A DNA stretch of 41,621 nucleotides from assembly GCA_945901155.1 (NCBI GenBank), contig CAMDKO010000014.1, positions 1-41,621 on the forward strand, read 5' to 3'. This DNA is from Pedobacter schmidteae (GTDB lineage: Bacteria > Bacteroidota > Bacteroidia > Sphingobacteriales > Sphingobacteriaceae). The translations under genes and the position numbers were made by a program. Below, piece after piece: positions 14,790 through 36,004 of this stretch; position 1 is the stretch's first letter, and each line of letters opens with the position of its first letter. Below the pieces are notes generated by a model. That model was not told the DNA's origin. It was given only the letters and a program-made list of their open reading frames with translations, and did no database searches.

Positions 14790-14918
14790 GAGATAAGAAG
14801 TATGAGATTTGTGACACTAGGGTCTTAAATTTCATATCAATCTCAATAATAAAAACCAAGATTGAGACAAAGAATACAGATTTATATCTCATATCTAATA
14901 TCTCACATCTCATATCTC
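14790..14918. repeat. Heptamer-repeat element in the sdhA-sdhB spacer
   Basis: Five 7-base units of the type ATATCTC/ACATCTC run without gaps from 14884 to 14918, ending exactly 7 bases before the sdhB ATG. On the left side, 14790-14817 holds degenerate units of the complementary form (GAGATAA, GAAGTAT, GAGATTT, GTGACAC), so the two ends form a long imperfect inverted repeat. Between them is a 7-bp hairpin (TCTCAAT at 14841-14847 with ATTGAGA at 14861-14867). The overall shape is that of a small palindromic repeat element. A sister array with five units and the same 7-base spacing occurs before nuoF. Confidence 0.75.
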
Positions 14919-14925
14919 AATAAAA

Positions 14926-22044: not shown

Positions 22045-22130
22045 AGAAGTTTGATTAAATATTAAAAATAAATAGACAGTTATATTAATGCAGTAAAATG
22101 GAAATTGAATTGACCGGAGTAAAAATTGGC

Positions 22131-22186
22131 AGAATGTTTTAGCACTTTTTTTTACGTGGTTGCAATCAACGCAAATCGATCCACTT
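22131..22186 (-). promoter_or_regulatory. Candidate SAM-II (SAM-alpha) type riboswitch in the metK leader
   Basis: Read on the minus strand, the leader has the order of the SAM-II pseudoknot aptamer. GTGG of helix P1 is at 22184-22181, then a loop with GATTTG (22177-22172) and ATTGCAA (22166-22160). The complementary CCAC of P1 follows (22159-22156), then GT and an A-rich linker, and finally GCTAAAA (22143-22137). GCA in the loop can pair with TGC before TAAAA to form the pseudoknot. The aptamer would start about where transcription begins from the TACTTTTG box upstream, and it ends about 87 bases before the metK ATG. The loop is about two bases longer than in the SAM-II structure I compare with from memory. 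Confidence 0.5.
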
Positions 22187-22196
22187 TTTTGCATAG

Positions 22197-33128: not shown

Positions 33129-33201
33129 GATAGGTATTTGGAGGCTAGTTGAGGTTTTTTAATTAAAAATCTCACATCTCACATCTCCTATCTCACATCT
33201 A
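33128..33201. repeat. Heptamer-repeat element in the nuoE-nuoF spacer
   Basis: Five units of the type ACATCTC/CTATCTC run without gaps from 33167 to 33201 and end exactly 7 bases before the nuoF ATG. AGATAGG (33128-33134) on the left side can pair with CCTATCT (33187-33193) in the array. The unit, unit number and distance to the next ATG are the same as in the sdhA-sdhB spacer. Confidence 0.75.
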
Positions 33202-33208
33202 AAAGAGA

Positions 33209-34579
33209 ATGGCTCGCAAGTTATTATTAGGCAATATTAATGTACCAGGAATACATACTTTCGATGTTTATCGTCAGCATGGAGGATACCGTGCAGTTGA
33301 AAAAGCGTTGAAGACCATGACACCGGATGCTGTGGTTGAAGAGGTTAAAACATCTGGTTTGCGCGGACGTGGAGGTGCAGGTTTTCCTACCGGTATGAAG
33401 TGGAGTTTTTTGGCAAAGCCTGAAGGCAGAGAGCGATATCTGGTTTGTAATGCAGATGAATCTGAGCCAGGTACATTTAAAGATCGTTATCTAATGACTC
33501 ATATTCCTCATCTTTTAGTTGAGGGAATGATCGTTTCAAGTTTTGCTCTTGGCGCAAAAACATCTTATATCTATGTTCGTGGCGAAATGATGCCTCAGAT
33601 CAGGATATTGGAGCGAGCAATTGCTGAAGCTAAAAATGCCGGATTTTTGGGCAAAAATATACTTGGATCAGGATATGATCTTGAATTATATGTACAGCCG
33701 GGTGGTGGAGCCTATATTTGTGGAGAAGAAACTGCATTAATTGAATCGCTGGAAGGTAAACGTGGAAACCCACGGATCAAACCCCCTTTTCCGGCAATTT
33801 CAGGAGTATGGGCATGCCCTACTGTTGTAAATAATGTTGAAACTATTGCAGCTGTTGTTCCAATCATTAATGATGGGGGCGAAGAATATGCTAAAGTAGG
33901 TAACGGTAGAAGTACGGGTACAAAATTAATTTCGGCTTCGGGCAATCTCAATAAACCAGGTGTGTATGAAATAGAACTTGGTCTTCCTGTTGAGGAGTTT
34001 ATCTATTCTGAAGAATATTGTGGTGGTATAGCCAATGGAAAAAGATTGAAGGCAGTAGTGGCAGGCGGTTCCTCTGTTCCAATTTTGCCAGCTAACTTGA
34101 TCCTGAAAACAATCAATGGCCAGCCCCGTTTAATGAGTTATGAATCACTTTCAGATGGTGGTTTTCAAACGGGTTCAATGCTTGGATCAGGTGGATTTAT
34201 AGCGTTTGACGAAGATCAGTGCATAGTTAGAAATACATGGAATTTTGCCCGTTTTTACCATCATGAAAGCTGCGGACAATGTTCGCCTTGCCGTGAGGGT
34301 ACAGGATGGATGGAGAAAGTGCTTCATAATTTAGAAAATGGGCATGGTAAAATGAGTGATATCGACCTGTTGGTTGATGTTTCGAAGAAAATTGAAGGCA
34401 ATACAATTTGTCCTTTGGGAGACGCTGCTGCTTGGCCTGTTGCCAGTGCGATTCGTCATTTCAGAGATGAATTTGAATGGCATATTACTAATTCAAAAAC
34501 AGCAATGGAGCAAAATTATGGTTTGGCAAATTACGCTGATCCATTGCCAAAACTGGAAGAGGTAACAAGTCAAAATTAA
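33209..34579 (+). CDS. nuoF: NADH-quinone oxidoreductase subunit F
   Basis: This 456-residue flavoprotein oxidises NADH. It has the NADH/FMN site GLRGRGGAGFPTGMKWSF (about 50-67), the second FMN region NADESEPGTFKDR, and the N3 4Fe-4S cluster in ESCGQCSPCREGTGW plus the distal Cys in TICPLGDAA. The last codons (SQN, stop) coincide with the first unit of the AAAATTA array. The start is set by ATG at 33209, 7 bases from the xxATCTC array. Confidence 0.97.
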   Translation: MARKLLLGNINVPGIHTFDVYRQHGGYRAVEKALKTMTPDAVVEEVKTSGLRGRGGAGFPTGMKWSFLAKPEGRERYLVCNADESEPGTFKDRYLMTHIPHLLVEGMIVSSFALGAKTSYIYVRGEMMPQIRILERAIAEAKNAGFLGKNILGSGYDLELYVQPGGGAYICGEETALIESLEGKRGNPRIKPPFPAISGVWACPTVVNNVETIAAVVPIINDGGEEYAKVGNGRSTGTKLISASGNLNKPGVYEIELGLPVEEFIYSEEYCGGIANGKRLKAVVAGGSSVPILPANLILKTINGQPRLMSYESLSDGGFQTGSMLGSGGFIAFDEDQCIVRNTWNFARFYHHESCGQCSPCREGTGWMEKVLHNLENGHGKMSDIDLLVDVSKKIEGNTICPLGDAAAWPVASAIRHFRDEFEWHITNSKTAMEQNYGLANYADPLPKLEEVTSQN

Positions 34580-34599
34580 AAATTAAAAATTAAAAATTT
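34572..34599. repeat. Left heptamer array flanking the inserted four-helix-bundle gene
   Basis: Three perfect AAAATTA units and one AAAATTT run from 34572 to 34599. They begin in the penultimate codons of nuoF and include its stop codon, and the array ends at the TTG start of the next gene. The sequence is roughly complementary to the right array at 34958-34999. Confidence 0.8.
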
Positions 34600-34957
34600 G
34601 GACGAAAAGCCTTTTGATATTAAGCGCAGGTGTTATCATTATTCAAAAGATATCATTTTATTTATATCTCAGGCACATATAGAAAAAATATATTTTTCAA
34701 TATTTGACCAACTTTTAAGGAGTTCTACCTCGATTGGTGCAAATGTTGTTGAAGGAAAATCTGGTAGTTCAAGGAAGGATTTTAAGAATTTTTATACAAT
34801 AGCCTTAAAATCTGCTAACGAAACAAAGTATTGGATTTGTCTTATTAGAGATACAGGATTATCAAAGGTGGATAAAGAAAAATTGGATAGTTTATTAAAA
34901 GAGGCTGACGAGATTTCGAAGATAATAGCTACAATTATTATTAATCTTAATAAGTAG
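34598..34957 (+). CDS. Four-helix-bundle protein (23S rRNA intervening-sequence family)
   Basis: This 119-residue protein belongs to the four-helix-bundle family named after proteins encoded by 23S rRNA intervening sequences; the Avd accessory factors of diversity-generating retroelements share the fold. The family core is clear: FDIKRRCYHYSKDIILFI, FDQLLRSSTSIGANVVEGKSG, SRKDFKNFYTIALKSANETKYWICLI and a final helix ADEISKIIATIIINL. The start is TTG at 34598, because an in-frame stop (the nuoF TAA at 34577) excludes any upstream ATG. It is inserted between nuoF and nuoG, where no complex I gene is expected. The gene is bracketed by two 7-base repeat arrays, suggesting a small mobile cassette. 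The molecular function is unknown. Confidence 0.85.
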   Translation: MDEKPFDIKRRCYHYSKDIILFISQAHIEKIYFSIFDQLLRSSTSIGANVVEGKSGSSRKDFKNFYTIALKSANETKYWICLIRDTGLSKVDKEKLDSLLKEADEISKIIATIIINLNK

Positions 34958-34999
34958 TTTTGGATTTTGGATTTTTGACTTTTGATTTTTGAATTTTTA
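34958..34999. repeat. Right heptamer array flanking the inserted gene
   Basis: Six 7-base units (TTTTGGA, TTTTGGA, TTTTTGA, CTTTTGA, TTTTTGA, ATTTTTA) follow the stop codon directly and stop 3 bases before the nuoG ATG. The units are in exact 7-base phase. They are approximately inverted relative to the left array, so the ends can pair loosely. Confidence 0.8.
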
Positions 35000-35002
35000 A
35001 CA

Positions 35003-36004
35003 ATGAGCGATAAAGTTAAAGTAACAATAGACGGTATTACGGTTGAAGTTGAACCGGGTACAAGTATTCTCAATGCTGCACGTCAGATTGGGGGAGATAT
35101 TGTGCCGCCTGCTATGTGCTATTATTCTAAACTTGAAGGAAGTGGTGGTAAGTGTCGTACCTGTTTGGTGAAAGTGAGCAAAGGTTCAGAAAAGGATCCG
35201 CGCCCTATGCCTAAGCTGGTCGCATCTTGTAGAACTGGTGTGATGGATGGAATGGAAGTGCAGAACATTACTTCGCCCGAAGTAATAGAAGCACGTAAAG
35301 GTGTTGTTGAAATACTTTTGATTAATCATCCATTGGATTGTCCGGTTTGTGATCAGGCTGGAGAATGTCATTTGCAGGATCTCTCTTTTGAGCATGGTGT
35401 TGCTGATACCCGCTACGAATTTGATCGCCGTACTTTCGAGAAAATAGATATTGGAGACAAGATACAATTGCACATGACGCGCTGTATTTTGTGTTACCGA
35501 TGTGTTTATGTTGCAGACCAGATCACTGATAACCGTGTTCATGGCATTTTAGGCCGTGGGGATGCTTCTGAAATTTCAACTTATATTGAAAAAGCAATTG
35601 AAAATGATTTTTCAGGAAATGTAATTGATGTTTGTCCTGTAGGTGCTTTAACGGACAAAACTTTCCGTTTTAAAAACCGGGTTTGGTTCACTAAACCTGT
35701 AGATGCTCATCGTGATTGCCCTAAATGTAAAGGTAAGGTAACACTTTGGTATAAGGGTGAAGAGGTATTAAGGGTAACAGGGCGTAAAGATCAATTTGGA
35801 GAAGTTGAAGATTTTATATGTAATACCTGCCGCTTCGATACTAAAAATACAAGTGATTGGGTAATTGAAGGTCCACGTCATATTTCGCATACTTCAGTAA
35901 TATCTTCTAATCATTATGAGATGACTCTTTTGCCAGTGATCAAAGAGAATCCAATATTGATTGAAGCTAATAAAATTGAATTCGACAGAGCAACTAAGGT
36001 TTAA
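35003..36004 (+). CDS. nuoG: NADH-quinone oxidoreductase subunit G, short form
   Basis: With ATG at 35003 (MSDKVKVTIDGITVEVEPG) the product has 333 residues. A TTG at 34982 would extend it into the repeat array and is rejected. It holds the 2Fe-2S domain (CYYSKLEGSGGKCRTC and VASCRTG), the His-Cys cluster motif HPLDCPVCDQAGECHLQD, and CILCYRC with CPVGALT. A Cys pair domain follows (CPKCKGK and CNTCRFD). The large molybdopterin-oxidoreductase-like domain of other NuoG proteins is absent, and nuoH begins at the next base. The short form is usual for this group of Bacteroidota, so it is not read as a truncation. Confidence 0.92.
   Translation: MSDKVKVTIDGITVEVEPGTSILNAARQIGGDIVPPAMCYYSKLEGSGGKCRTCLVKVSKGSEKDPRPMPKLVASCRTGVMDGMEVQNITSPEVIEARKGVVEILLINHPLDCPVCDQAGECHLQDLSFEHGVADTRYEFDRRTFEKIDIGDKIQLHMTRCILCYRCVYVADQITDNRVHGILGRGDASEISTYIEKAIENDFSGNVIDVCPVGALTDKTFRFKNRVWFTKPVDAHRDCPKCKGKVTLWYKGEEVLRVTGRKDQFGEVEDFICNTCRFDTKNTSDWVIEGPRHISHTSVISSNHYEMTLLPVIKENPILIEANKIEFDRATKV

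Follow-up and report, generated by a model that had tools for sequence, protein, structure and literature searches.

What a four-helix-bundle gene is doing between nuoF and nuoG, and how it came to lie there, is the question raised by the 41,621-bp stretch of Pedobacter schmidteae DNA analysed here (the window; its genome is G000). A sequence-only reading had described the gene as starting at TTG with 7-base arrays at both ends and had proposed that gene and arrays form a mobile cassette. The description is confirmed. The predicted protein matches Pfam PF05635 (23S_rRNA_IVP; E 3.6e-23, 82.3 bits against a cut-off of 33.8) and NCBIfam TIGR02436 (four helix bundle protein; E 3.2e-27, 94.9 bits against a cut-off of 24), which places it in the 23S rRNA intervening sequence protein (IVP) family; its relatives in the PDB are 2rld (E 5.5e-15) and 2gsc, and its TTG start aligns with an ATG in the relative L132. 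The left array ends at the IVP start codon, the right array starts at the IVP stop, and the nuoF stop, which lies inside the left array (34577-34579), is intact, as had been noted. Judged from its protein family and its absence in most relatives, the gene probably has no role in complex I. The features of the locus are collected in the table.

Features of the nuoF–nuoG element and of related arrays in the window.
Feature	Position	Strand	Basis
IVP gene, 119 aa, TTG start, four-helix-bundle / 23S rRNA intervening sequence protein family	34598..34957	+	PF05635 and TIGR02436 above cut-off
Left arm: AAAATTA heptamer array, 3.9 copies, 100% matches; overlaps nuoF stop	34572..34598	+	TRF; shuffles
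Right arm: TTTTTGA heptamer array, 5.7 copies, 87% matches; complementary to left arm with G.U in RNA	34958..34997	+	TRF; fold; shuffles
nuoF, upstream host gene	33209..34579	+	ORF; 51/60 relatives match
nuoG N-terminal ORF, downstream host gene, ATG at 35003	35003..36004	+	ORF frame; conserved in 30 junctions read
Geneless ATCTCAC array filling the nuoE–nuoF junction; two-armed hairpin in relatives	33169..33200	+	TRF; relatives' junctions
Geneless ATATCTC array, left arm GAGATAAGAAGTATGAGAT upstream, filling another junction	14884..14919	+	TRF; sequence

The 7-base period of the arrays is strict. Self-match at lag 7 reaches 24/28 in the left array and 25/28 in the right, values matched by 0 of 2000 dinucleotide shuffles for each flank; a self-match of at least 23/28 is found at lag 7 in three places of the window (14886, 34568 and 34966) and at lags 4-6 and 8-12 in none. 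In both the MFE and the centroid RNA structures, the left and right arrays are paired and close a stem with the ORF in its loop, and the fold of the element as a whole is of ordinary stability (z -0.51; 32 of 100 shuffles fold as well or better). PF05635 is the only Pfam match of the single gene in the element, which thus shows neither a transposase nor a recombinase. At the Rfam gathering cut-off the window contains no self-splicing intron RNA structure, its sole match being SAM-II at 22129-22190 on the minus strand (58.2 bits).

The same architecture recurs well beyond this locus. Six PF05635 genes are present in G000, of which one is truncated where its contig ends and one or more contain an in-frame stop; those other than the window gene carry different heptamers on both sides, such as AATTACG/CGTAATT at C21 and GTGAGAT/ATCTCAC at C55. 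We called an array in an IVP flank at a lag-7 self-match of at least 18/28 and used single stretches from the same loci as controls. In a family set of 103 distinct IVP genes, which includes 60 stretches from the best-scoring part of the match list, arrays were found to the left of 42 of 100 genes, to the right of 72 and on either side of 78, compared with 21 of 354 single control stretches. Among the named close relatives of the window IVP the proportion rises to 39/42 (controls 3/188), and across the phylum, for IVP loci among the matches listed, it is 13/29 (controls 1/113). Lags 5, 6 and 9 stay near the control level in IVP flanks, while lag 8 is slightly raised, most of all in the phylum set; some flanks in that set (loci L193-L221), as well as at L012, are 8-bp periodic, with loose arrays in the phylum set at 7/29 for lag 8 and 8/29 for lag 7. 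IVP loci on 12 plasmids, from 12 of 20 matching records (10 cyanobacterial, one Bernardetia and one Treponema saccharophilum), gave lag-7 means of 23.3 and 23.5 against 11.0 for 49 controls, with arrays on both sides in 10, on one side in 1 and a long perfect inverted repeat instead in 1. The flanks of other family members, which the sequence-only reading had singled out as a check, therefore carry heptamers both in G000 and family-wide (78/100), and the gene with its two complementary arrays is a real and recurrent unit. Twenty Y1-transposase genes of the same bacterial family have no lag-7 arrays (means 12.5 and 12.6 vs 12.0).

On plasmids, IVP genes lie antisense between cas2 and cas1 in L280 (1492-1848; Nostoc TCL26-01) and L284 (1492-1839; Anabaena cylindrica PCC 7122), with heptamer arrays on two sides in the former and one side in the latter. 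On Planktothrix plasmids (L286 and L301), an array-ended IVP gene is found between a DISARM drmD-like helicase gene and a methyltransferase or restriction enzyme gene.

To our knowledge, no function is known for IVP proteins. The near-invariance of Q38, R41, S45, N49, E52, S72 and E75 across 163 sequences, together with a median dN/dS of 0.115 (141 pairs), reveals purifying selection and indicates that the protein does something. The family is widespread, with genes in 157 of 198 sampled Bacteroidota genomes; a phage collection gave two weak matches. The Xanthomonas IVP protein is a homopentamer, according to a paper on Coxiella (PMC4990558).

The two arms of an element belong together. Arm pairs score at least 14 in 36/100 elements of the family set when each left arm is matched with its own right arm, compared with 61/2000 for swapped pairs, and in 11/29 compared with 15/580 in the phylum set; for the relatives of the window IVP the values are 24/42 and 392/840, a blunt test since a single repeat type prevails throughout. 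In 106 of 125 elements, the left arm is rich in purines. The fraction of 6-mers that arms share is ~0.02 below 35% IVP identity and, above 65%, reaches 0.55 at the same junction and 0.34 at other junctions; in the 0.55-0.65 identity band it is nearly the same for the same junction (0.218) and for different junctions (0.208). A relative at another site (L162, from an Ignavibacteriales record) retains the TTTTGAA/TTTTTAC repeat type. These comparisons show that the repeat type tracks the IVP lineage across junctions. We also considered selection on the arms at the level of RNA and found no support for it: G.U and A.C number 94 and 105 in 125 arm pairs, and this lack of a wobble asymmetry makes the pairing look DNA-like. 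Together with the unremarkable fold energy, the absent G.U excess speaks against stem formation and cutting in the message; pairing at the level of DNA would account for both at least equally well.

IVP elements favour certain positions and keep to them. At the 163 loci with both neighbours called, the IVP gene is in the sense orientation with both in 140 and antisense to both in 14, the latter orientation being seen also at the plasmid loci L280, L284 and L285. The gene downstream, named from our reading of translations, is nuoG at 37 loci (a number favoured by the query), a thiolase at 28, an ArgD-like aminotransferase at 18, MetF at 14, an acyl-CoA dehydrogenase at 9 and ArgC at 3. In a tree of 163 IVPs with 102 tips assigned to six junctions, 10 changes of junction are required, compared with a shuffled mean of 58, and with nuoG left out 9 compared with 37; IVP lineages thus stay long at one junction.

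At the nuoF–nuoG junction itself, the element is old and position-bound, yet patchy. Among the named relatives of the window IVP, 35 of 41 lie beside nuoF and/or nuoG, across Sphingobacteriaceae, Chitinophagaceae and other groups, and six lie elsewhere; one cultured carrier of the element at this junction is Mucilaginibacter lappiensis ATCC BAA-1855 (L134). When we read 30 nuoF–nuoG junctions, the gene was present in three: G000, G004 (where it is frameshifted) and G030 (another genus). Five more, of the Daejeonella group, contain a remnant in which an internal deletion has brought the gene start up against the end of the right array, and the remaining 22 have neither gene nor remnant, one of them having arms of another repeat type. 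At L037 (G023), the junction is occupied by GTGAGA/TCTCAC arms around a short, geneless loop. The sister genomes G000 (full) and G002 (empty) are 94-99% alike in nuoF and 93-99% in nuoG (150-bp bins), and G001 shares the empty junction with G002, which suggests that G000 gained the element; two losses would also be allowed.

Silent sites are consistent with such an entry. Between G000 and G004, the silent-site difference (pS) is 0.34 for the IVP gene, against 0.64 for nuoG and 0.66 for nuoF (p 0.0002), and this low synonymous divergence fits horizontal entry at nuoF–nuoG. Across 54 same-junction pairs, one of them from a single genome, IVP pS is significantly lower in 12 (two of which are one comparison) and higher than that of the downstream gene in 10, so horizontal entry is not general. 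This split, 12/54 lower and 10/54 higher, also gives no support to the idea that IVP pS is low because silent sites are uniformly constrained. Strict vertical descent at the junction was rejected: IVP distances show only a moderate Mantel correlation with those of nuoF (0.32, p 0.001; 32 loci), and 7 of 29 splits are shared. Our reading is that the element has now and then entered this junction horizontally, atop an older inheritance.

More direct signs of movement come from plasmids. In pC052_A of Nostoc C052, the element fills, from array end to array end, 422 bp in an alignment gap; at that place, two further plasmids of this strain and two more from Nostoc are empty and show 188-198 bp of dissimilar sequence, and the right flank is 99.8% identical to that of pC052_D over 868 bp. 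In plasmid 2 of Aulosira laxa, ~502 bp take the place of 25-31 bp present in four relatives. Both inserts are bounded by the outer array ends, and comparison of each with its four empty sites reveals no target-site duplication; rather, 25-198 bp of target are missing. Mobility is supported for the class of elements, as a rare event, and only indirectly for the window copy. The proposal of a mobile cassette accordingly stands insofar as presence and absence are block-wise in two plasmid sets, whereas a recent, dispersed insertion at nuoF–nuoG does not agree with the 35/41 relatives at the same junction, the 10 junction changes against 58 or the five remnants. The sequence-only reading expected its proposal to fail if gene and arrays lay at one and the same place in all related genera; they do so in many genera, but 22/30 sampled junctions are without the gene, so this check goes half each way.

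Not every heptamer array comes with the gene. In 441,621 bp of G000, a strict scan yielded 40 arrays with a 7-base lag and not a single one at lags 4-6, 8-10 or 13; all calls fell outside ORFs, and five lie at the ends of the stretches. Thirty-six of the 40, all in the 400 kb outside the window, do not belong to an IVP element, and the window holds the other four, two of them geneless. At the nuoE–nuoF junction (33129-33208 in the window; L013-L042), many members of the genus, and G032 of another genus, have a geneless two-armed heptamer hairpin that spans from the nuoE stop to the nuoF start. 23S intervening sequences also have a short form, so the short geneless hairpin and the long gene-bearing form parallel the two forms known there. 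Solo arrays have proliferated in G000 and in G018, which has 27 strict stray arrays in 200 kb; random 20-kb samples gave none in 400 kb from a further 11 genomes with IVP and a single one in 560 kb from ten without. These samples led us to abandon IVP number as a predictor of genome-wide arrays. Pattern hits number at least three in 42/70 IVP-bearing and 1/31 IVP-free genomes of the family (within-genus p 0.0005), but the near-zero counts in random samples imply that this correlation partly reflects the IVP flanks themselves. In the 11 IVP-rich genomes with few stray arrays, a loose array accompanies 14/28 IVP loci (~9 kb of flank), compared with 17 per 400 kb, and a strict array accompanies 4/28. 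The genome G025 has 28 heptamer pattern hits and no IVP match, and G066 has 198 hits and 2 IVPs.

Among known systems, Avd of diversity-generating retroelements has a four-helix-bundle fold related to that of IVP; unlike those retroelements, G000 (93% complete) has no reverse transcriptase (PF00078) match. REP/RAYT systems resemble IVP elements in their inverted ends, intergenic location and many geneless copies, but the IVP element has no Y1 domain and, at 20 loci, Y1 genes have no heptamer arms. The element also resembles 23S rRNA intervening sequences. That of Coxiella burnetii, as described in PMC4990558, has a 28-bp end stem, is excised by RNase III and carries tandem GACAGAT heptamers before its ORF, in a copy number that varies among strains; the same source calls the origin of 23S intervening sequences unclear. 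The window element shares with it a length of ~0.43 kb, a stem closed by its complementary ends (supported by the MFE and centroid structures and by own versus swapped arms), an IVP ORF in sense orientation within the loop and tandem heptamers beside the ORF (PMC4990558). It differs in lying outside any 23S rRNA gene, at a junction within a protein operon, in having heptamer arrays at both ends and in belonging to a class with many elements per genome, and excision would be expected here by analogy. Heptamer repeats have been described in their own right, as intergenic TAACTGA repeats in Beggiatoaceae, Cyanobacteria and five Bacteroidetes (PMC4679880) and as 70 and 75 inverted GGGAATC pairs in Xanthomonas (PMC4692102). 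Such repeats agree with ours in their strict 7-nt unit, intergenic location and frequent position directly 5' of a start codon, and differ in having no noted link to an IVP gene, the terms 23S, intervening and four helix being absent from both papers. Our literature search found no report tying IVP genes to heptamer arms outside 23S rRNA, the nearest cases being the heptamers of the Coxiella element, the TAACTGA repeats and the inverted pairs of Xanthomonas; most subscription papers were beyond its reach, and absence is not proven.

Architecture, recurrence across phyla, coupling of repeat type to lineage and purifying selection on the protein are established for the array-ended IVP element, as are position-bound inheritance, internal deletions and, on plasmids, block-wise presence or absence bounded by the array ends. 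We consider it probable that an IVP gene and two inverted arms of 7-bp repeats together form one short mobile intervening element. At nuoF–nuoG it would be transcribed within the nuo message, where its arms may fold back and close a stem; by analogy with the 23S intervening sequence of Coxiella (PMC4990558), the message may be cut at this stem, with RNase III as the candidate enzyme, so that both neighbours stay expressed. A location between a stop and a start codon would make the element nearly harmless. Occasionally the unit would move into a related genome whose corresponding junction is empty and, rarely, into a site not used before; deletions from arm to arm would remove it. The probable target of the IVP protein is its own pair of arms, for recognition, maintenance or copying. 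Several observations weigh against this account: the missing wobble asymmetry and the ordinary fold, the smaller share of phylum loci with arrays and the 8-bp periods of some, the 10/54 pairs with higher IVP pS, the antisense loci, the loss of target bases in place of a target-site duplication, and the heptamer arrays without IVP in G000, G018 and G025.

If the unit were instead a regulatory insert adopted by the host, gene and arms would be a stable part of nuo that uses mRNA folding to set the expression of nuoF relative to nuoG and would not be selfish. The shared junction across families, the purifying selection with its near-invariant residues and the sense orientation at 140/163 loci all agree with this, but the gene is absent from 27/30 nuoF–nuoG junctions (remnants in 5), including that of the sister G002, the G004 copy is frameshifted, and the same class occurs in unrelated operons (arg, met, fad) and on plasmids; we regard this account as unlikely. 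A Y1 (HUH, RAYT-like) transposase might instead work in trans on the hairpin ends and so mobilise an element that is itself passive, with the IVP protein as an accessory; this is quite improbable. Y1_Tnp genes are present in 41/70 IVP-bearing and 2/31 IVP-free family genomes (p 6e-7; within-genus p 0.014), a link to IVP that reverse transcriptase (p 0.28) and DDE (p 0.67) genes do not have, and a reverse transcriptase acting in trans was dropped as a candidate on that ground. On the other hand, 29 IVP-bearing genomes have no Y1 match, G018 with its 11 IVPs among them, the Y1 genes themselves are without heptamer arrays, and the correlation may reflect shared ancestry.

The IVP genes could also merely lie among the ordinary, slippage-prone heptamer repeats known from several phyla. 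G000, with 36 in the 400 kb outside the window, and G018 do indeed have abundant arrays without IVP, and the published heptamer repeats come with no noted IVP link (PMC4679880, PMC4692102). Yet the 11 other IVP-bearing genomes have 0 strict stray arrays in 400 kb and still an array at 4/28 IVP loci, the arms are complementary and lineage-coupled, and Y1 genes have no arrays. As a full account, ordinary repeats are refuted in the present data set, and we give this reading very little credence.

A broader version of the mobile intervening element that we favour is offered tentatively, as somewhat doubtful in its full extent. Such elements may form a minimal class, found at least in Bacteroidota, Cyanobacteria and Spirochaetota, that pairs a non-transposase four-helix-bundle gene with inverted heptamer arms; the protein would act directly on its cognate arms and copy the unit, or home it, into junctions of operons, some of the many heptamer repeats in bacterial genomes would be its footprints, and the 23S intervening sequences would be its rRNA branch. 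The link to IVP joins heptamer repeats with 23S rRNA intervening sequences and offers an origin for repeats that have long been noted and left unexplained, of which it may explain a part. It also ties IVP proteins to a defined DNA architecture, which makes their function testable: they may bind, cut or copy the heptamer arms. Should the IVP protein move its own unit, the element would be mobile even though it has no known transposase, recombinase or reverse transcriptase.
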